The notes beneath the pieces were generated by a model that saw only the letters and a program-made list of their open reading frames with translations, had not been told where the DNA came from and searched no databases. From a virus, in IMG/VR virus record IMGVR_UViG_3300031566_000295, positions 1-27,759 of that record: a stretch of 27,759 bases of DNA; one strand, given 5' to 3'. A program made the position numbers and the translations under genes. Position 1 is the first letter of the stretch, and each line of letters starts with the position of its first letter. Of the stretch, positions 1,907-21,653 are shown one piece after another.

Positions 1907-2805
1907 TACAACATTTCCCTTAATAGTAACTTAACCTCCCCTGATGTTGTAAAGAACATAGCCTCATTAAGCACTTCTTTCATCCTCTCCTTTGTAATAC
2001 TAGCAGGATCTTCCTCACCTGATAATCTACACAATTTAGGAATATGCCCAAAACCTTTTAATGTCCTAGCTATCCTCATAGCCCCATCCAGGGCATCCCC
2101 ATCCAACATTATGTAAAAACACGTATCCAATTTTAAAAGTTTAAAAAGCTGCCCATTATGCAGCTGTTTCCCATTAATAGCAATAAAGGCACCACCATCT
2201 TTGACAGAACCTAAAATTGCATCAAAAATCCCTTCTACAATCACAACATAAGGTGGGTTATTCTTCCTTACAGCATCCCACCCAAACATACATTCACTGG
2301 TTGTATTTATAGTTTCCCCATGGTGAGGAAATAAATATTTTGGTTTCACGCCTTCTAGAAAGGATCTGGCCACAAAACAAACAATCCTACCATCCTCTAA
2401 AATAGGTACTAAAACCCTCCCATAGTACCTACCAAAAGATGCAAATTTAATATTATAGAACCTTATTAATTCTTTAGTAAATCCTCTACTTTTAAGGTAT
2501 TTTAAAGCCTGCCTGTCAAGTTGATCATGTATACCAGTAACCTTTCTAAACTGTAAAAAGTCTGTTTCCGTATGCCGCTCTTTCTCAACTAATCCAGGCC
2601 CGCTTTCTATCTCATCCCCATTTCCATAATCTAATGCTAACTGCCTAATAGTACCTTTTTTCCCACAAAAATGGCAAATAAAAAACCCCACCTCAGCGTT
2701 AACATAACAGTGATTATGGGTAGGATGATCACCACAATATGGGCATCTAATGCAGTATTCCTGATTTGATTTCCATTCCCCATCAAAAATATCATCAATT
2801 AGCAT
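1906..2805 (-). CDS. DNA primase, zinc-finger plus TOPRIM (DnaG type)
   Basis: Makes RNA primers for lagging-strand synthesis, probably with the DnaB-type helicase encoded at 21696-23045. With the start at 2805 it has 299 residues. An N-terminal zinc finger has C21, C24, H27, C44 and C47 (CPYCGDH, CHFCGKKG). It is followed by a primase core with YYGRVLVPI, and a TOPRIM domain with E191 (VVIVEGIFDA) and D235/D237 (YIMLDGDALDGA). The reading frame is open upstream to 2937, but that extension runs through a tRNA gene and gives a nonsense-like N-terminus; ATG 2805 has GGTGGG just before it and sits directly in front of the zinc finger. There is no C-terminal helicase domain, so it is a stand-alone primase. 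Confidence 0.9.
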   Translation of the reverse strand: MLIDDIFDGEWKSNQEYCIRCPYCGDHPTHNHCYVNAEVGFFICHFCGKKGTIRQLALDYGNGDEIESGPGLVEKERHTETDFLQFRKVTGIHDQLDRQALKYLKSRGFTKELIRFYNIKFASFGRYYGRVLVPILEDGRIVCFVARSFLEGVKPKYLFPHHGETINTTSECMFGWDAVRKNNPPYVVIVEGIFDAILGSVKDGGAFIAINGKQLHNGQLFKLLKLDTCFYIMLDGDALDGAMRIARTLKGFGHIPKLCRLSGEEDPASITKERMKEVLNEAMFFTTSGEVKLLLREML

Positions 2806-2829
2806 ATCCCACCATTTTGATCCAAAAAA

Positions 2830-2903
2830 TGCCCCAGGTCGGATTTGAACCGACACTTGGTGAATTTTAAGTCCACTGGCTCTTCCAATTGGCCTACTGG
2901 GGC
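2830..2903 (-). tRNA. tRNA-Leu (UAA), class I-like with short variable loop
   Basis: The 7-bp acceptor is GCCCCAG/CTGGGGC, and the discriminator is A73, as expected for Leu. The D-arm has 3 bp with GG in the loop. The anticodon arm is GTGGA-CTTAAAA-TTCAC, anticodon UAA at 2869-2867. The T-arm is GTCGG-TTCAAAT-CCGAC. CCA is not encoded. The variable loop is only 5 bases (CAAGT), whereas bacterial Leu tRNAs normally have a long variable arm. It would read UUA codons. Confidence 0.85.
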
Positions 2904-2907
2904 ATAA

Positions 2908-2983
2908 TGCCATGGAGAAGATTCGAACTTCCAACACATAGGTTCTAAGCCTACTGCCTCTACCTTATTTGGGCTACCATGGC
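2908..2983 (-). tRNA. tRNA-Leu (UAG), class I-like with short variable loop
   Basis: The acceptor is GCCATGG/CCATGGC with A73. The D-arm has a 3-bp stem (GCC/GGC). The anticodon arm is GTAGG-CTTAGAA-CCTAT, anticodon UAG at 2947-2945, reading CUA. The T-arm is GGAAG-TTCGAAT-CTTCT. CCA is not encoded. Like the neighbouring Leu tRNA it has a 5-base variable loop (GTGTT) instead of a long arm. Only 4 bases separate it from that tRNA. Confidence 0.85.
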
Positions 2984-2986
2984 AAA

Positions 2987-3057
2987 CAACCCTCCTTGGA
3001 TTCGAACCAAGATTGCCGGGATCAAAGCCCGGTGTCCTACCATTGAACGAGGGGGTT
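2987..3057 (-). tRNA. tRNA-Gln (UUG)
   Basis: The D-arm is GTTC/GGAC, the anticodon arm CCGGG-CTTTGAT-CCCGG with anticodon UUG, and the T-arm CTTGG-TTCGAAT-CCAAG. The discriminator is G73, as usual for Gln. The acceptor AACCCCC/GAGGGTT has one C-A mismatch at pair 6-67. It starts with A1-U72, a weak first pair like that of bacterial tRNA-Gln. CCA is not encoded. The 4-base variable loop is CAAT. Confidence 0.85.
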
Positions 3058-3061
3058 AAGA

Positions 3062-3134
3062 AGGGACAGGGTGGAATCGAACCACCGTCTCCTGATCCAC
3101 AGTCAGGAATTCTTACCAATTGAACTACCGCCCC
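3062..3134 (-). tRNA. tRNA-His (GUG) with atypical end
   Basis: The acceptor is GGGGCGG/CTGTCCC, the D-arm GTTC/GAAT, the anticodon arm CCTGA-CTGTGGA-TCAGG with anticodon GUG, and the T-arm GGTGG-TTCGATT-CCACC. The loop has U33-G34-U35, the recognition triplet for tRNA-guanine transglycosylase. Position 73 is U and position -1 is U, so the G(-1):C73 pair that bacterial HisRS relies on is not encoded. CCA is not encoded either. Confidence 0.8.
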
Positions 3135-3147
3135 AAATAAAGAAAAA

Positions 3148-3224
3148 TGGAGTGAGCCAGATTTGAACTGGCATCTCCCCAAAAAACTTTTGGGGGCTCT
3201 TCTTATTAATTGAGCTACCACTCC
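3148..3224 (-). tRNA. Degenerate tRNA, Asn (GUU)-like
   Basis: A complete cloverleaf outline: acceptor GGAGTGG/TCACTCC with A73, D-stem GCTC/GAGC, T-arm GCCAG-TTCAAAT-CTGGC. The anticodon stem CCCAA/TTGGG fixes the loop as AAGTTTT, giving anticodon GUU (Asn), but position 33 is A rather than the near-universal U. The 12-base D-loop lacks the G18-G19 pair. The anticodon arm extends into a strong near-perfect palindrome (CCCCAAAA with TTTTGGGG). It may be a decaying tRNA, a decoy, or a tRNA with a non-standard role. CCA is not encoded. Confidence 0.55.
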
Positions 3225-3231
3225 ATACATT

Positions 3232-3477
3232 TTAAATTACCGTCTCCATTTGTTTAAGTTCTTTAATACGCTCTATAGCATTATTCAATTCTTCTTCTTC
3301 TAATTTTACTAAACCAATTATAGCACCATGAAAAAGTTGTATTATTTCACTCACTAAAAGTGGCTTCTTTGGGATATAAAGTGATTTAATTATTTTATCC
3401 CCAGTAAAAGAAAGTATTTCAAAGCTGGAAGTGGATTTTACTGTCATTTTTAATTTTAAACCTTCCTTAATAATCAT
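3232..3477 (-). CDS. Small protein of unknown function between tRNA genes
   Basis: An 81-residue ORF lying between the Pro tRNA and the other five tRNA genes. It has a beta-rich first half (SFEILSFTGDKIIKSLYIP) and a helical, charged second half (LEEEELNNAIERIKELKQ). No Cys, signal peptide or known motif is seen. ATG 3477 has AGGGG about 9 bases upstream; an internal ATG at codon 11 has AAGGAAGG but a spacing of 13, so the first is preferred. It is likely transcribed with the tRNAs from the promoter at 3600-3628. Function unknown. Confidence 0.7.
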   Translation of the reverse strand: MIIKEGLKLKMTVKSTSSFEILSFTGDKIIKSLYIPKKPLLVSEIIQLFHGAIIGLVKLEEEELNNAIERIKELKQMETVI

Positions 3478-3500
3478 TTTATTTTTCCCCTAAAAATTAA

Positions 3501-3576
3501 TGGTGGAGAAGGTGGGAGTTGAACCCACAATTCCGGGCTTCCAACGCCCAGCTGTTACCAGCAACATCTCTTCTCC
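3501..3576 (-). tRNA. tRNA-Pro (UGG) with encoded CCA
   Basis: The acceptor is GGAGAAG/CTTCTCC with A73 and an encoded CCA, the only one of the six with CCA. The anticodon arm is TGGGC-GTTGGAA-GCCCG, anticodon UGG. The T-arm is GTGGG-TTCAACT-CCCAC. The D-arm has pairs U11-A24, G12-C23, U13-A22 and G18-G19. Position 8 is A and 14 is U, a swap of the usual U8-A14 pair. It is the first RNA downstream of the promoter at 3600-3628. Confidence 0.8.
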
Positions 3577-3599: not shown

Positions 3600-3628
3600 A
3601 GTATAAAATAATTAACAAATTCTATCAA
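3600..3628 (-). promoter_or_regulatory. Sigma70-type promoter for the tRNA-primase-sigma unit
   Basis: On the minus strand: -35 TTGATA (3628-3623), a 17-base spacer, -10 TATACT (3605-3600), each 5/6 to consensus. The start would be near 3593, about 17 bases before tRNA-Pro. The TGA stop of the upstream nrdJ gene (3627-3625) lies inside the -35 box. Confidence 0.7.
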
Positions 3629-5301
3629 GATTTCAGTTTTTCAAGATAATCCAGTACTTCTTTCTTATTAAGTGGGTATAATACCTGCTCTGCACGGCTC
3701 TTATCCACATAGACGGTTACCCCCTTAAGTTCATACAAGTACTCCTGTAACCAACTGGCTAATTGGATTACAGAGGTTCCCGCTGGAAGATTAACAGTCT
3801 TACTAATAGCCCCATCAATGTATTTTTGAATACTGGCTTGTACCTCAAAATGTTCCTCTGGTGTAAGATCATAAGAATCTACAAACCAATCTGGAATCTT
3901 CTCTTTTTTACAGAGAATCTCTTTATATAAAGGGTGAATATATATCCGCTCTCCTATTTTATCCTTCCTACAATAGGCCTTGGAAAACAGCGGCTCTATA
4001 CCACTAGTAACCCCGGCAACAAGAGAAATAGTACCAGTAGGAGGACAAGTTAATAACGCAACATTCCTAATACCAAACTTCTTAATACGTATCCTTAGTT
4101 TTGCCGGCAATTTCCGAATAAACCTAGCCTTACTAAATTCCACAGTATCAAACTTAGGAAATACCCCCTTTTCAATTGCCAATTCTACACTAGCATTATA
4201 TGCCTCATCCCGAATAAATTTAAATAACCGCTCTATCTCCTCATTAGCCTTTACTGAACCATAGCGTAGTTTCTTCATAAAAAGATAATCTGCTAATCCC
4301 ATTACCCCTAATCCTATCCTCCTACTATCCTCAGCCACAACCTTCATTTCATGTATAGGAAATGTAGTAAGATCAATTACATTATCTAATAACCGCACAG
4401 CAAGAGGAATTGCTTTCGCAAGATTAAGCCATTTTGTACTACCGTCCTTAGGATTTACAAATTTTGGTAATACCAAAGAACCTAAATCACAAGAACCATA
4501 TGCTTGTAAAGGTAACTCACCGCAAGGATTAGTTGCTATTACTGGGGCGTAATAGAAGCTATTTGCCTTTAAAAGATTACTCATATTAATAATCCCAGGT
4601 TCTGCACTAGTAATAATATTTTTTAAAATCTTATGCCATAAAACCTTAGCCCTAATCTGTTTGTATTCCCTGGCACCATAAGTAAGTTTCCAAAAGTCAT
4701 CACGCTCTACCGCCTCAATAAACTCATTTGTTATGGCGACAGAAATATTAAAATTTTTTAATTTATCATGTTTTAATTTTGCGTCAATAAACTCTTCAAC
4801 CTCCGGATGGGAAATATCAACAATAGCAATAGCAGCTGCCCTCCGCTGCCCCCCACTCTCTATCGTAGTAGCAACAGCATCAAGAGCAGTAATAAAAGAC
4901 ACAAGACCAGAAGAATACCCACCCTTACCTTGGATCTGTGTTCCTTTTGGCCGGAGGGAAGAAAAATTTATACCAACACCACCTCCAGCAGCCCATGTAA
5001 TCAAAGAATCCTTAATACAGGTACCAATCGCTTCTATATTATCCCCAATTGGAAGTACAAAACAATTCAACATATTCCTATTATACTGCCCAGCATTCCT
5101 TAGAATTCTACCACCAGGAAGAAATAATTTTGAATTTATTAAATTAAAAGTATCCTCTAAAACTGCCTTATCACCATCACTTTTTGAACAAAGTGCTATA
5201 GCCACCCTTCTTGCCAATGCTTCCCACTTCTCACCATCTTGATAATATCTAGATTCTGCAACAGTTTCCTGGTGCTTCAAATCCACATTAAGATACCTCA
5301 T
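3625..5301 (-). CDS. nrdJ: Adenosylcobalamin-dependent (class II) ribonucleotide reductase
   Basis: Reduces ribonucleotides to deoxyribonucleotides for phage DNA synthesis, using a B12 radical. It has 558 residues. Class II-like motifs include the first redox Cys in MLNCFVLP, the Gly-rich AAGGGVGINFS, SGGQRRAAAIAI, the radical site NPCGELPL (Asn, Cys and Glu all present), the second redox Cys in YGSCDLGSLVL, PPTGTISLVAG followed by SGIEPLF, and DGAISKTVNLP. No small (NrdB-type) subunit gene is nearby, which favours class II. The C-terminus (DKSRAEQVLYPLNKKEVLDYLEKLKS split by no Cys) lacks the CxxC-type tail that usually re-reduces the active site. Its ATG overlaps the end of queE by 4 bases, with GGGG 6 bases upstream. 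It is last in its unit, and its stop is part of the next promoter. Confidence 0.9.
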   Translation of the reverse strand: MRYLNVDLKHQETVAESRYYQDGEKWEALARRVAIALCSKSDGDKAVLEDTFNLINSKLFLPGGRILRNAGQYNRNMLNCFVLPIGDNIEAIGTCIKDSLITWAAGGGVGINFSSLRPKGTQIQGKGGYSSGLVSFITALDAVATTIESGGQRRAAAIAIVDISHPEVEEFIDAKLKHDKLKNFNISVAITNEFIEAVERDDFWKLTYGAREYKQIRAKVLWHKILKNIITSAEPGIINMSNLLKANSFYYAPVIATNPCGELPLQAYGSCDLGSLVLPKFVNPKDGSTKWLNLAKAIPLAVRLLDNVIDLTTFPIHEMKVVAEDSRRIGLGVMGLADYLFMKKLRYGSVKANEEIERLFKFIRDEAYNASVELAIEKGVFPKFDTVEFSKARFIRKLPAKLRIRIKKFGIRNVALLTCPPTGTISLVAGVTSGIEPLFSKAYCRKDKIGERIYIHPLYKEILCKKEKIPDWFVDSYDLTPEEHFEVQASIQKYIDGAISKTVNLPAGTSVIQLASWLQEYLYELKGVTVYVDKSRAEQVLYPLNKKEVLDYLEKLKS

Positions 5302-5939
5302 ACTTGCCCCAAAATTTTATGAATCTGACAGGATAAACGCCACTTTGGATTCTTTCTAAGTAACTCAAATACCACAGCAAAAGCACTTCTAATATCCCAC
5401 AATGGGGCGGTATTTTGGTATTCCTGGGCAAGTGCTGGCTGTAAATAATAGTACTTAAACCCCATATTTTCATAGTACTTTAAATTAAATTCTTCTACAT
5501 CCCAGTTATCTATTACCAATTTTAATTCATCCCCATCTGTAAAAAATGATTTTGTTTTAGGGGAAATTGTCACCCAATCCAGCCCAAGCCTATCCTTATT
5601 CATTAGGACGGTACCATTTGTTTCCACAGCAACTTCCTTCACCTTTCCAACCTTTAACAATCTAATTAATTCAGTAAGACTTTCATGATCTTGTAAAAGT
5701 GGCTCACCACCAGTGAATATCATAAAATCTGAAAATAAAATAGATTCTAAAAGTTTATCTGCCAACTCTCTAGGTTGATATCCCCCACCACTTGCGGCGG
5801 TCTGTGCCCAAACAGTATCGCAAAACTCACACCTCAAGTTACATCCAGAAAATCGCACAAATGTTGCCTGTCTACCGGCATGAAACCCTTCTCCCTGAAT
5901 CCCCTTAAACATTTCTGATACAATTAAATGTTTACTCAT
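5298..5939 (-). CDS. queE: 7-carboxy-7-deazaguanine (CDG) synthase, radical SAM
   Basis: Converts 6-carboxytetrahydropterin, the product of QueD, to CDG with SAM and an iron-sulfur cluster. It has 213 residues, the usual QueE length. Visible are the substrate loop FKGIQGEG (11-18), the QueE-type CX3CX2C cluster motif C33-C37-C40 (CNLRCEFCDT), the radical-SAM GGEP at 77-80, and VETNGT and ISPKTKS further on. Near the end, SCQIHKILG matches the family's conserved His-Lys. It overlaps queD by 8 bases and nrdJ by 4 bases, so it is tightly coupled. Phages use QueE for DNA deazaguanine modification or to perturb host queuosine metabolism. Here a DpdA-like gene at 19375 makes DNA modification the better guess. 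Confidence 0.92.
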   Translation of the reverse strand: MSKHLIVSEMFKGIQGEGFHAGRQATFVRFSGCNLRCEFCDTVWAQTAASGGGYQPRELADKLLESILFSDFMIFTGGEPLLQDHESLTELIRLLKVGKVKEVAVETNGTVLMNKDRLGLDWVTISPKTKSFFTDGDELKLVIDNWDVEEFNLKYYENMGFKYYYLQPALAQEYQNTAPLWDIRSAFAVVFELLRKNPKWRLSCQIHKILGQV

Positions 5940-6372
5940 TATTATCTACCACTATAGCACTAGCAATATCAGATTCCCAAACCTGAACAGACACTAGTTT
6001 TATCTTATTCCAGATGGTAAGGGAATAATACTGTAAGTCCGCCCCTACCTGACTAAAAATCATATAGGCAAGATTCTCACATGTAGGGTTTCCTGATGTT
6101 AAGGCAATTCTTCTAAGTCCAAATTTACCAATCATATCAAATAGTGGATCAGAAGGATTCAATAAAACACTATGGTCAAAATTAGAAATAGTTTTAGTAA
6201 ATAGTGATTTCAAAACCTTGAAATCCACTACCATTCCAGTATCCCCCACTGGTCCACTAACTGTAAATCGAACTTTCCACGTATGGCCATGAAGATTGAC
6301 ACAAAGACCATCATGGTCTAATAGCCTATGTGCCGCATCAAATTTTAATTCCATAACTAATATAGTATCCAT
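5932..6372 (-). CDS. queD: 6-carboxy-5,6,7,8-tetrahydropterin synthase
   Basis: Converts 7,8-dihydroneopterin triphosphate, made by GTP cyclohydrolase I, to 6-carboxytetrahydropterin, the substrate of QueE. It has 146 residues. The zinc ligands are H15 (FDAAHRL), H28 and H30 (NLHGH), with catalytic C24 in the right spacing. GMVVDFKVLK, FDHSVLLN, NPTCENLA and VQVWES are all typical of QueD. The start at 6372 follows a strong GGGGGAAAGG. It overlaps queE. The first enzyme of this pathway is encoded about 14 kb away as a fusion (20706-21653), so the pathway is divided between two transcription units. Confidence 0.92.
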   Translation of the reverse strand: MDTILVMELKFDAAHRLLDHDGLCVNLHGHTWKVRFTVSGPVGDTGMVVDFKVLKSLFTKTISNFDHSVLLNPSDPLFDMIGKFGLRRIALTSGNPTCENLAYMIFSQVGADLQYYSLTIWNKIKLVSVQVWESDIASAIVVDNNE

Positions 6373-9276: not shown

Positions 9277-11188
9277 TTAACTCTGATATACCATCTTTTC
9301 TCTCTATAATAATAAGATTATCAAAATAATCCCTAAGTTCATTTTGATGGCTGATTACAAATATTGCCTTATCCCTGGATGATTCTTTTAACAAGTTTAC
9401 AGTATTTTCAATCCCAACTATATCCAAACACTCAAATACTTCATCAAAAATTACTAAATTACAATCCTTTACACTTCGCCTAAAAATAAGACTCTGAAGT
9501 GCAAGAAGAATAGAAATATCTATCCTAGCCTTTTCCCCGTTTGAACAAGTTTCATACCCAACCTCTATATCATTAGCAAGTATCTGAACAGAAAATCTAT
9601 CTCGTTTTTCACCACTTTTCAACGTTGCCTCTGTATCAAATCTAACTACCATCTCATCCCCCAAAAGAACAGAAGCATACTTACTAACCTCATCATTTAA
9701 CTCAGGTAAAATCTCATCAAGTAGAAATGATTTTATTCCTTTAGGCCCAAATCCCTCTACCCAGAATTTATAATACTCAATATCTAATTCTATCCCAGCA
9801 TATCCAGATTTTAACTCCTCATCTTCCTTCTCTGATTCAGCAATTTTACCTTTAAGTTCCTTTAATTGATCACCTATTTGTTCTTTTTCAGTTTCAAGTA
9901 ACCTACCAATATTCCTAAGTTCTACAGCAAAATTACTAATCTTATTTTCAATCTCCCTAATAGTACTTTTTCTCCTCTCCATTTTTAGTTTCTCTGTATG
10001 AATAAACTCCTCTACTGCACTCTTTAATTTCAACGCCTCATCCAACTTCTTATCAAAAATAGCGGTTATTTTCACCACCTCCGCCAGGGCAACTTCATAC
10101 TTTTTCTTGGCTTCATCTAATAATGGGGATAGTTTATCAAGCTCACCATGAAGATGTTCCAAAACCTCTGCAACTGATTTCTCATCTACTACAGAGTAAC
10201 AAGTTGGACATCTTACCCCCTTCTCCGAGATAGTTACCGCCTGTATGGCGTCCTTTAAAGTAGAAACCTTAGCGGAAAGTGTACAATATGTGACATTACT
10301 TTTCTGAGTAATATCATTTAAATTACTAATTGCTGTAATCTTTTCTAGCCTGATTTCACTAAAAGCAGCAAAATACTTATTCTGTTCCTCATTAAGTTCC
10401 TCAATATTACTACTAGATTTTTCATACTCTTCCTTAGCTGTGGTAAGTTCTGCCTCTAAAACCTTCTTCTTATTATTAATATCCGCTGATACTAAAGCAG
10501 AATCGACTTCCTTTTTCTTAAATAATTCACCCTTAAGTTTTAACTGGCTATAGTCTACTACACATTTTTCTAAGTAGGCCTCTATCCCAGTAATCTTAGA
10601 GGAAATTTCACCCATATCCTCAATTAACTCTTTTATCTTATCCTTCACCATTTGGCATGGTTCATCAAAGATATTTAGCATAATCAATTCATCAAAAATC
10701 TTTTTCTTCTCTGTATCATTTGCCTCAGTAAACCTTCTAGCCTTTTCACCAAAAATTATTGCAGTAGAAAATAACAACCAGTCCAACCCAATAGTACTAT
10801 CTATTAATTTTTGGGTTTCTCTCTTACTCAATTGGGTTAAATCCTGGGAACCCTTTATAAGACGTAAAGAACTACCTAAATCAGAGTCATTAATGGATCT
10901 GATAATATCATACTCACCTTCTTCCGTTGAAAATGATACATTCACAATACAGTTTTTACCTACATCCCTATTCACAATTCTATCAGCATCAGCATTTCTA
11001 ATTGTTTTACCAAAAAATGCAAAACAAAGAACTTCAAAAAATGCACTTTTCCCTGCCCCATTACTATTTGATATAGTCCTGCCAATCACATCACCACCGA
11101 CAAAGTATAACCCGGATGTGGGAAAGGTATACTCAAGGGTTTTAAAACTTAAAAAATTACTGGCACTAACCTTTAATATCTGCATCAT
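9266..11188 (-). CDS. sbcC: SbcC/Rad50-like (T4 gp46-like) recombination ATPase
   Basis: Works with the SbcD/Mre11 partner encoded just upstream to process DNA ends for recombination-dependent replication. It has 640 residues. Walker A SNGAGKS is at 42-48 in the N-terminal lobe. Long coiled coils follow (about 200-470), broken by a zinc hook C327-P-T-C330. The C-terminal lobe has Walker B NLVIFDE with D582/E583 and the H-loop His near 614 (FVISHQ). The length is close to T4 gp46 and shorter than bacterial SbcC (about 1000). It starts in an ATGA overlap with the stop of sbcD. A second ATG follows directly. Confidence 0.93.
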   Translation of the reverse strand: MMQILKVSASNFLSFKTLEYTFPTSGLYFVGGDVIGRTISNSNGAGKSAFFEVLCFAFFGKTIRNADADRIVNRDVGKNCIVNVSFSTEEGEYDIIRSINDSDLGSSLRLIKGSQDLTQLSKRETQKLIDSTIGLDWLLFSTAIIFGEKARRFTEANDTEKKKIFDELIMLNIFDEPCQMVKDKIKELIEDMGEISSKITGIEAYLEKCVVDYSQLKLKGELFKKKEVDSALVSADINNKKKVLEAELTTAKEEYEKSSSNIEELNEEQNKYFAAFSEIRLEKITAISNLNDITQKSNVTYCTLSAKVSTLKDAIQAVTISEKGVRCPTCYSVVDEKSVAEVLEHLHGELDKLSPLLDEAKKKYEVALAEVVKITAIFDKKLDEALKLKSAVEEFIHTEKLKMERRKSTIREIENKISNFAVELRNIGRLLETEKEQIGDQLKELKGKIAESEKEDEELKSGYAGIELDIEYYKFWVEGFGPKGIKSFLLDEILPELNDEVSKYASVLLGDEMVVRFDTEATLKSGEKRDRFSVQILANDIEVGYETCSNGEKARIDISILLALQSLIFRRSVKDCNLVIFDEVFECLDIVGIENTVNLLKESSRDKAIFVISHQNELRDYFDNLIIIERKDGISELNDG

Positions 11189-19374: not shown

Positions 19375-20319
19375 TCAAAATAGGGTATTCTGTCTAACAA
19401 TTCGCTCTGAAGTGCCAGAATCCCTAGAATTGTTTATATAGTCCTCAAATTCTAACCAGGCAAGAAAAGAGATGTAACACCTACACCACCAATCATTAAG
19501 ATCAGAAACTTTAATAGAGTACTTCACAGATAAATACTCCAATATAGCAGGTGATACTTTTTTTGTACTCATAATTCCAGCAACATATACTGTGGATAAT
19601 TTTTTAAGTTCAGTATTAAAAATAAACACACTACCATGACCAACAGCAAGGGCCACACTCACAGAATCAACAGAATACCATGGGTAACCCTTTACCAAAG
19701 ATGATGATGTAATTCCAAAACCATGTAAATTAACACTAATACCAGTATCTTCTATATGAGTAAAAAGACTATCTAACCATAACCTTTTATTTTTATCTGA
19801 TACAGCCCTAGCCATTCCACCTATCCCAATATAATCTACCCCAATTTCCAAATATCTATCTAAAACTCCTAAATCTTCACCAAAATGATATACAGGAATA
19901 TTAACAACACCTGCTTCCTTCATCCTTACATAATTTAAATAACTAGTATTACTAGCATTCTTAAGTTCATCACCAGTAGGAGCAGTAGAAATTGTTCCAG
20001 GAATCTTATCCAAACCAACAAAATATAACTCACCCCATTGTGATTCAGTTAATTCCTTCTTACAAAAAGCAATATAACTATCAAGATCCACCTCAGTACC
20101 AGATTTCCAAATAGAGTAGGCACCTGAATCAAGCATCATTTTCATACCACTGCTAAACCCACCTACACCCAGTTTTATCAGCAGATAACTCTTTATTTCG
20201 GAGTAAGTATACAACACAGCTGGCCCTTTCCCAATAAATTTGTCAAACCATATTCTAGATTGATCACCTACAACAGGAACAGTCCTACTATGACCAAAAT
20301 AAATAGTTAATTTATTCAT
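19375..20319 (-). CDS. dpdA: DpdA/TGT-like guanine transglycosylase
   Basis: Predicted to exchange guanine for a 7-deazaguanine base, probably in phage DNA. It has 314 residues and a TIM-barrel layout like bacterial TGT. D64-S-G (MMLDSGAYS) matches TGT's TDSGGF. D104 lies in FVGLDKI. VPVYHFGED (142-149) and IGIGGMA (164-170) match TGT's GGLavGE region. HGFGITSSSLVKGYPWYSVDS (split over 199-219) places D218 where TGT has its nucleophile Asp. The CxCx2C-His zinc site of bacterial TGT is not seen; only WWCRC occurs near the end. This pattern is that of phage DpdA-type proteins. It lies between a cREC-like gene and the clamp-like gene, in the same unit as the Gpt-FolE fusion. Confidence 0.78.
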   Translation of the reverse strand: MNKLTIYFGHSRTVPVVGDQSRIWFDKFIGKGPAVLYTYSEIKSYLLIKLGVGGFSSGMKMMLDSGAYSIWKSGTEVDLDSYIAFCKKELTESQWGELYFVGLDKIPGTISTAPTGDELKNASNTSYLNYVRMKEAGVVNIPVYHFGEDLGVLDRYLEIGVDYIGIGGMARAVSDKNKRLWLDSLFTHIEDTGISVNLHGFGITSSSLVKGYPWYSVDSVSVALAVGHGSVFIFNTELKKLSTVYVAGIMSTKKVSPAILEYLSVKYSIKVSDLNDWWCRCYISFLAWLEFEDYINNSRDSGTSERIVRQNTLF

Positions 20320-20322
20320 ACC

Positions 20323-20703
20323 TTAAATCCCTAAATTAGTAAAAATAGTACCAAGATTATCCACCCAGGCAAATGGATAAGCCAAAGCCTCTGGAAGAAC
20401 ACTAATAATATTTTTCCTTCCTGCTTCATTCAAAGAATGAGTTATAATAGTCTTTGGCTGTAGATCCCTATTTTCAACTAACCACAAAGCCAAATCATAT
20501 CCAGTAGGCTCTTCACCAAAAGAATTAACATAAACCCTACCACCTAAGTCATGATCAATAAATAAAACATCAAATTTAGCCCCCTGAAGGTTTCTAACTG
20601 CGCTTTCAACAGTAGCTACTACAGTAACAGTATTACCAACATAACCCCACCGTAAAAAGGCTATCTGACGTGAAGAATCATCTTCTAATACTAATATATC
20701 CAT
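20323..20703 (-). CDS. Receiver-like protein of the cyclic-phosphate processing (cREC) type
   Basis: A 126-residue protein with a receiver-like fold: an acidic start E7-D8-D9 (LVLEDDSSR), then D50-H-D52-L-G-G (FIDHDLGG), TGYDLALWL, and IITHS with H89. The DHDLGG plus HS pattern marks the cREC family, predicted to act on cyclic or terminal phosphates of RNA rather than as a phosphorelay switch. There is no output domain. It lies 3 bases after the DpdA-like gene's start side and 2 bases after the fusion gene's stop, so the three are co-transcribed. A link to RNA end repair or to deazaguanine metabolism is inference. Confidence 0.7.
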   Translation of the reverse strand: MDILVLEDDSSRQIAFLRWGYVGNTVTVVATVESAVRNLQGAKFDVLFIDHDLGGRVYVNSFGEEPTGYDLALWLVENRDLQPKTIITHSLNEAGRKNIISVLPEALAYPFAWVDNLGTIFTNLGI

Positions 20704-20705
20704 TA

Positions 20706-21653
20706 TTACTTCCCTATCAATCTTAAAAATTCATTTCTTGTAGCAATTTTTTCCCTAAACACTCCATGCATATAACTAGTCGTCATTTTTGCATTTTCTT
20801 TTTTAATCCCCCGCATTAACATACACAAATGAATTCCCTCTACAACAACTGCTACGCCATTAGTCTGCATAATATCATCAAACTCCTCACCTATTTGCCG
20901 AGTCATACGTTCTTGAATTTGTAATCTCCGGCTAAAAACCTCTACTAATCTAGAAATTTTAGAAATCCCAACAATTCTACTTTTAGGGATATATGCAAAA
21001 TGAACTTTTCCATAAAATGGAAGCATGTGATGTTCGCACATTGAATAAAATTCTATATCCTTTAGTATAATCATTTCATCATAACATTCACTATTAAAAT
21101 TAGTACTAATAATTTCCTTTGGATCTTGATTATACCCAGAAAATAATTCATCATATGCCCGTGAAATTCTACTTGGAGTACCTTTCAACCCCTCTCTTAA
21201 TGGATCTTCCCCAATACTCCTTAATAAGGCAGTCACCGCCTGCTCCCTAGCCCCTGAAAAAAAACTATCTAAGGACCCTTCCCAAGGAAAAACATACCAA
21301 CGTTTATCAGATGAATCTTTAGTATATAAAAATGTAAAGTTAACCTTTCTTAATTTCTTTTCTACAGCAAGGTTCTTAAAAAATTCTACTGTTGCTCCTG
21401 TATCCAAAATATCATCAACCACTAAAATTCTTTTCCCTTCTAATCCATCAAAAGCACTCTTATCAAAAGGATTAACTATTAATAATTTTATAGCCTGATA
21501 TTTTTGCATCTTCCAAAGAAGAGTAGCAGGAATAATTCCACCCCTTGATACTCCTATAATATAATCAAGATCTGGAAAAATCTCCTTAAAAAGGTGAACC
21601 ATATCCAAAAGTTTTTCCTCTACCATTTTCATACTAATAACTTTTCTATCCAT
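20706..21653 (-). CDS. folE: Fusion: Gpt-like phosphoribosyltransferase - GTP cyclohydrolase I
   Basis: Two enzymes in one 315-residue chain. Residues 1-130 are a type I phosphoribosyltransferase resembling xanthine-guanine PRTase: GVSRGGIIPA (34-43), the PRPP loop ILVVDDILDTGAT (76-88), and WYVFPWE (119-125). Residues about 134-315 are FolE, which turns GTP into dihydroneopterin triphosphate: zinc and catalytic C206-E-H208-H209 (SMCEHHMLP) and C277 (HLCMLMRG), exactly 71 residues apart as in E. coli FolE (110 and 181), with TPSRISRAY and TTSYMHGVF. All key residues are present in both parts. FolE feeds QueD and QueE encoded at 5298-6372. It is the first gene after the promoter at 21671-21699, with GGGAG before ATG. 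Confidence 0.92.
   Translation of the reverse strand: MDRKVISMKMVEEKLLDMVHLFKEIFPDLDYIIGVSRGGIIPATLLWKMQKYQAIKLLIVNPFDKSAFDGLEGKRILVVDDILDTGATVEFFKNLAVEKKLRKVNFTFLYTKDSSDKRWYVFPWEGSLDSFFSGAREQAVTALLRSIGEDPLREGLKGTPSRISRAYDELFSGYNQDPKEIISTNFNSECYDEMIILKDIEFYSMCEHHMLPFYGKVHFAYIPKSRIVGISKISRLVEVFSRRLQIQERMTRQIGEEFDDIMQTNGVAVVVEGIHLCMLMRGIKKENAKMTTSYMHGVFREKIATRNEFLRLIGK

Follow-up and report, generated by a model that had tools for sequence, protein, structure and literature searches.

What does a phosphoribosyltransferase (PRT) do when it is fused to GTP cyclohydrolase I (FolE), in a virus that also encodes a DNA guanine transglycosylase (DpdA)? The question is raised by one gene of the window, by which we mean the whole 27,759-nucleotide stretch that was analysed (IMG/VR record IMGVR_UViG_3300031566_000295). 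An earlier reading of the letters alone had proposed a Gpt-like PRT joined to GTP cyclohydrolase I, and the reading frame, Pfam and an AlphaFold2 model all bear this out. The gene is one unbroken open reading frame from ATG to stop. Its location had been given correctly but without a strand, which is the minus strand; the plus strand across the same positions is packed with stop codons. AlphaFold2 models the whole protein with a pLDDT of 94.5 and a pTM of 0.85, and the PRT half alone with 91.7 and 0.84. The features and their positions are collected in Table 1.

Table 1. Features of the fusion gene and of the neighbouring modification genes; positions are those of the window, and residue numbers and counts refer to the fusion protein and its 111 fused homologues.
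Feature	Position	Strand	Basis
PRT-FolE fusion gene, 315 aa + stop	20706..21653	-	ORF, Pfam, AlphaFold2 model
Gpt-like PRT half, aa 1-126	21276..21653	-	Pfam PF00156 1.2e-7; Foldseek 6-oxopurine PRT folds
PPi loop SRGG, aa 36-39	21537..21548	-	G39 111/111, G38 106/111, R37 83/111
PRPP-binding motif ILVVDDILDTGAT, aa 76-88	21390..21428	-	D80, D81, G86, T88 111/111; D84 109/111
Base-binding hood WYVFPWE, aa 119-125	21279..21299	-	W119 108/111, W124 109/111, E125 107/111
GTP cyclohydrolase I half, aa 137-313	20715..21245	-	Pfam PF01227 (GTP_cyclohydroI) 2.2e-73; 1wm9 TM 0.94; C206, H208, H209, C277 invariant
dpdA, DNA guanine transglycosylase	19375..20319	-	phrog_887 6.3e-38; aligns with phage DpdA
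queD	5932..6372	-	Pfam PTPS 4.2e-29; phrog_2389
queE	5298..5939	-	NCBIfam queE_Cx14CxxC 6.8e-40, below cut-off; phrog_2076 2e-30

The FolE half is a full-length GTP cyclohydrolase I domain with its zinc and catalytic residues. It scores 246 bits against the NCBIfam folE equivalog, above the cut-off of 181.6, and shares 49% identity with the Thermus thermophilus enzyme (1wm9; TM normalised on the target). The zinc residues C206, H209 and C277 named in the earlier reading are all found, with 71 residues from C206 to C277, which we take to be the spacing in E. coli FolE. All zinc and catalytic residues are common to this half and to GTP cyclohydrolases I such as 1wm9, from which the fusion differs in that the PRT domain replaces the usual N-terminal segment. 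Pfam additionally reports QueF in the FolE half of 65 of the 111 fused proteins; these matches we read as cross-hits via the shared T-fold, and a QueF identity was rejected. The dN/dS of the FolE half is 0.08 (106 non-independent pairs).

The PRT half has the fold of a type I phosphoribosyltransferase, including its PPi loop and PRPP motif, as seen by Pfam, the model, Foldseek and the motifs. The Pfam match (Pribosyltran) spans aa 62-126 and lies above the gathering score. Among NCBIfam models, xanthine phosphoribosyltransferase scores best with 33.8 bits, which misses its cut-off of 138, and we therefore call the half Gpt-like and do not assign it to Gpt. Its nearest solved sequence relatives are archaeal and E. 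coli-type 6-oxopurine (hypoxanthine-guanine-xanthine) PRTs, and Foldseek groups it with the P. horikoshii purine PRT, the S. solfataricus HGXPRT and the E. coli XGPRT (Gpt). With these enzymes (1a95, 4z1o, 1vdm) it has in common the fold and the positions SRGG, DDxxD(S/T)GxT, K112, W119 and P-W-E/D; it differs from them by its fusion to FolE, a shortened loop and an identity of only ~17-29%. The PRPP loop had been placed at aa 76-88, and the motif sits exactly there. Judged by K112, W119 and D84, the base site looks like that of a 6-oxopurine PRT, in which, going by what is known of Gpt and HPRT, D84 is presumably the catalytic Asp, K112 contacts O6 and W119 stacks on the base. Most of these sites are invariant or nearly so among 111 diverse fused proteins (Table 1), and K112 is kept in 94 of them. 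Purifying selection acts on the PRT half, with a median dN/dS of 0.23 and a maximum of 0.47 (106 non-independent pairs). Active-site conservation and dN/dS together argue for a PRT half that binds PRPP and a purine-like base.

The earlier reading of an intact PRT half held for the key residues and missed the state of the flexible catalytic loop. In type I PRTs the stretch from PPi loop to PRPP motif contains such a loop, which shuts over the active site. The gap between these two motifs has a median of 27 residues in 199 fused ORFs, compared to 41 in the window protein and ~49 in XGPRT, and a profile alignment leaves 21 XGPRT residues without counterpart in the PRT half. The loop appears shortened in the window protein and absent in most fused homologues. 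A PRT family so poor in loop may be slow, may close its site differently or may no longer catalyse.

The company of the gene is informative about its pathway. dpdA, folE, queD and queE all lie in the window, as in the phage 7-deazaguanine DNA modification system of DpdA, FolE, QueD, QueE and QueC (PMC6884629); no queC was seen within this 27.8 kb viral fragment. Between the fusion gene and dpdA lies a gene for a cREC_REC (cyclic-phosphate processing receiver) domain protein (20323-20703, minus strand, E 3.4e-15). Some 14 kb from the fusion gene and dpdA lies an apparent operon (3625-6372, minus strand), in which queE shares 4 bases with a gene for a B12-dependent ribonucleotide reductase (NrdJ_Z 2.5e-148) and also overlaps queD.

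We scanned IMG/VR four times and tabulated the loci with profiles built in this analysis. The same domain order, for which a search had been suggested, occurs in ~205 fused ORFs of viral contigs and fetched isolates, a count in which some loci overlap on the same contig; at 70% identity the ORFs form 121 clusters. A frameshift or an assembly join was rejected, because the fusion recurs in independent contigs and isolate genomes, and so was a peculiarity of one phage, given the ~205 ORFs and 33 GenBank phage records. The fusion is certainly real and widespread. Co-occurrence with DpdA, likewise suggested as a check, proved to be a general association. FolE is present in 69 of 80 DpdA-seeded loci, and 30 of these 69 carry a PRT, fused in 25 and as a separate ORF in 5. 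The other 39 do without, and the PRT is thus not essential; the 11 DpdA loci that lack FolE, several of them contig ends, all lack the PRT too. Seeding with bare FolE gave 30 fused and 2 separate PRTs among 79 loci, 77 of which carry dpdA. When the PRT served as seed, 75 of 77 viral loci had it fused to FolE, 62 of these with dpdA within the stretch examined. Fused loci without dpdA were mostly short contigs, and in 5 of 28 dpdA turned up at another place on the contig.

Separate PRT genes also adjoin folE and dpdA (the L112, L150 and L066 clusters), and Flavobacterium phage immuto has the order queD-queE-PRT-folE-dpdA with a separate PRT. The annotated DpdA of immuto escapes our DpdA profile, so that negatives obtained with it are soft. 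The PRT is part of the 7-deazaguanine DNA-modification cluster, with tight linkage to dpdA and que genes. On a FolE tree (FastTree only, gain and loss not distinguished) the PRT label switches often, at least 10 times on well-supported branches, which speaks for a recurrent association. Outside viruses, the matches listed from a PRT-profile scan of cellular genome contigs included one odd Lewinella contig end (L172), and a plasmid collection yielded one bacterial plasmid copy of PRT-folE, in Sinorhizobium.

Isolated phages carry the fusion as well. A tblastn search of phage records with the whole protein gave 31 in which the match spans 80% of the query or more, and a family-typical PRT half retrieved 33 isolated-phage GenBank records (Pseudomonas 17, Vibrio 7, Stenotrophomonas 3, Xanthomonas 2, Variovorax 2, Sphingomonas 2), the annotated rows of which name the gene GTP cyclohydrolase or FolE. 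All five phage genomes inspected show the order queE, queC, queD, PRT-folE, dpdA, with dpdA confirmed by profile. Members of the Queuovirinae subfamily such as VpKK5 and NP1 are included. The "GTP cyclohydrolase" of VpKK5 (Vibrio), NP1, PaMx25 and Quinobequin-P09 (Pseudomonas), MMDA13 (Sphingomonas) and Bhz54 (Stenotrophomonas) has the identical domain order, the PRT and FolE motifs of the window protein, 36-38% identity to it over the whole length and dpdA as an adjoining gene; the PRT halves are even shorter than that of the window, the flexible-loop stretch being gone. The Seuratvirus FolE examined is a bare protein of 204 aa without PRT domain. Of the 111 fused proteins, no more than 31 have a PRT half that Pfam recognises, which may be why the domain was overlooked.

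Both domains, the pathway and the gene cluster are known; what appears to be new is the PRT domain within the cluster. Quinobequin-P09 was sequenced in the 2019 phage deazaguanine study, which reports that ~28-32% of the guanines are exchanged in the studied phages; "phosphoribosyl" occurs 0 times in its text and no phosphoribosyltransferase is named (PMC6884629). The open-access literature searched held no paper describing a PRT domain in a 7-deazaguanine cluster and did not address the fate of the guanine released by DpdA. The sequence-only reading knew of no described enzyme with this fusion, which agrees with this literature, while the same architecture already stands in the 33 GenBank records under the name of FolE. 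A large share of DpdA phages, 30 of the 69 dpdA loci that have FolE, thus encodes a guanine-type PRT, mostly fused to FolE, that standard annotation misses.

As to function, we lean, if only just, towards a bifunctional enzyme of the 7-deazaguanine pathway through which guanine would be recycled in a closed loop, the model that the earlier reading had favoured. With every exchange, DpdA inserts one deazaguanine base into DNA and releases one guanine. The PRT half would convert this guanine with PRPP into GMP, by which it would also clear a product able to reverse the DpdA exchange. Host kinases would bring GMP to GTP, and the FolE half would turn GTP into dihydroneopterin triphosphate, the committed step to the next deazaguanine. 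FolE spends one GTP on every deazaguanine made, one guanine out thus equals one GTP in, and a guanine PRT would be the enzyme joining the two ends, guanine release by DpdA and GTP use by FolE. With two kinase steps between the PRT and FolE reactions, direct channelling is unlikely; more plausibly, the fusion fixes dosage and co-expression. Phages would then probably return discarded guanine to the raw material for the modified base, a question that becomes directly testable in culturable phages.

Catalysis, guanine as the substrate and flux through the loop we infer from several lines. Recycling fits best since the base-site residues are those of a 6-oxopurine PRT and the partners are an enzyme that releases guanine and one that uses GTP. 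It is further favoured by the linkage counts, by the separate PRT genes beside folE and dpdA, by the invariant PRPP residues together with D84, K112 and W119, by the hypoxanthine-guanine-xanthine PRTs as nearest solved relatives and by the low dN/dS of the PRT half. An additional, single case comes from Sinorhizobium chiapasense plasmid pSchITTGS70c (NZ_CP133151.1; locus L335, 14435-17902), which carries queD, the PRT-folE fusion, queE and queC in what looks like a captured phage cassette. A profile search that covered this plasmid detected no dpdA on it, and the PRT motif reads FIDDVVNSGAT with the catalytic Asp changed to Asn, as would be expected of relaxed selection without DpdA. Against recycling stand the shortened or missing loop with its 21-residue deletion, the many FolE loci and all FolE-less DpdA loci that do without a PRT, and two phage cases. 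Brevundimonas phage StAshley (L011, 5223-6378) has a full-length Gpt-like PRT gene whose direct neighbours are folE and a gene for a dNMP kinase, and neither dpdA nor que genes were detected in this phage. Campylobacter phages CP220 and F379 (L331 and L330, both 9995-10408) have a standalone PRT near a radical-SAM gene, with an altered PRPP loop, DDINDTSKT (G86 to S), and no DpdA match to our profile.

These exceptions and the lost loop are where other readings find their footing. The PRT half could be a non-catalytic sensor, controlling the FolE half on binding PRPP, guanine or GMP, which we regard as rather unlikely. PRPP-binding PRT folds without catalysis are known, PurR being one, and a sensor would suit both the fusion to a committed enzyme and a family in which most members lost the flexible loop and kept the ligand-site residues; it accords poorly with the retention of the catalytic D84 in nearly all members, and clusters of this type that encode the PRT as a gene of its own are hard to square with regulation from within one protein. 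Slightly less probable still is a combination in which the loop-less fold, acting either as a switch gated by guanine/PRPP or, on the FolE oligomer, as an unusual catalyst, ties FolE output to the guanine ejected from DNA and so makes the pathway self-metering. The family also provides a natural set of PRTs with the flexible loop lost. General purine salvage, in which the PRT would feed FolE with GTP made from whatever guanine, hypoxanthine or xanthine the cell offers and not from DpdA guanine specifically, is what StAshley would suggest; we think it distinctly unlikely, given that nearly all other PRT-FolE genes accompany que genes and that dpdA is visible near most of them. For telling whether the PRT goes with DpdA or with FolE, very few cases, StAshley and Sinorhizobium, are at hand.

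That the PRT half makes a nucleotide from a deazaguanine base (preQ0, ADG or CDG), a variant of the alternative named in the earlier reading, seems improbable for the fusion. In 6-oxopurine PRTs the Asp equivalent to D84 meets N7 of the base; this Asp is retained, whereas 7-deaza bases have no N7. Moreover, DpdA is present in the window phage and in its relatives with the fusion, and since this enzyme takes the free base for insertion, making a nucleotide would be a diversion. The idea draws its strength from the Campylobacter phages, for which dADG has been reported (PMC6884629) and which have standalone PRTs without a DpdA profile match; one of these PRTs bears the annotation "purine phosphoribosyltransferase / queuosine biosynthesis protein". 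Their protein is a candidate deazaguanine PRT, although its changed PRPP loop counts against the idea even there. A decaying PRT domain, finally, to which the shortened PRT might point, is hardly credible in view of the motif invariance and a dN/dS well below 1 across independent contigs and isolate genomes; the artefact that would complete this explanation, a frameshift or chimeric assembly, is already refuted.

Two minor observations concern gene boundaries. Three of the separate PRT ORFs (L248, 61-456; L112, 7298-7735; L021, 9809-10387) end in a short tail that resembles the start of the FolE domain and looks as if a fused gene had split. In the window, five tRNA genes (Leu-taa, Leu-tag, Gln, His and Pro) lie at 2829-3576 on the minus strand, and a 143-aa ORF called at 2799-3230 covers tRNA genes and is probably not a gene.
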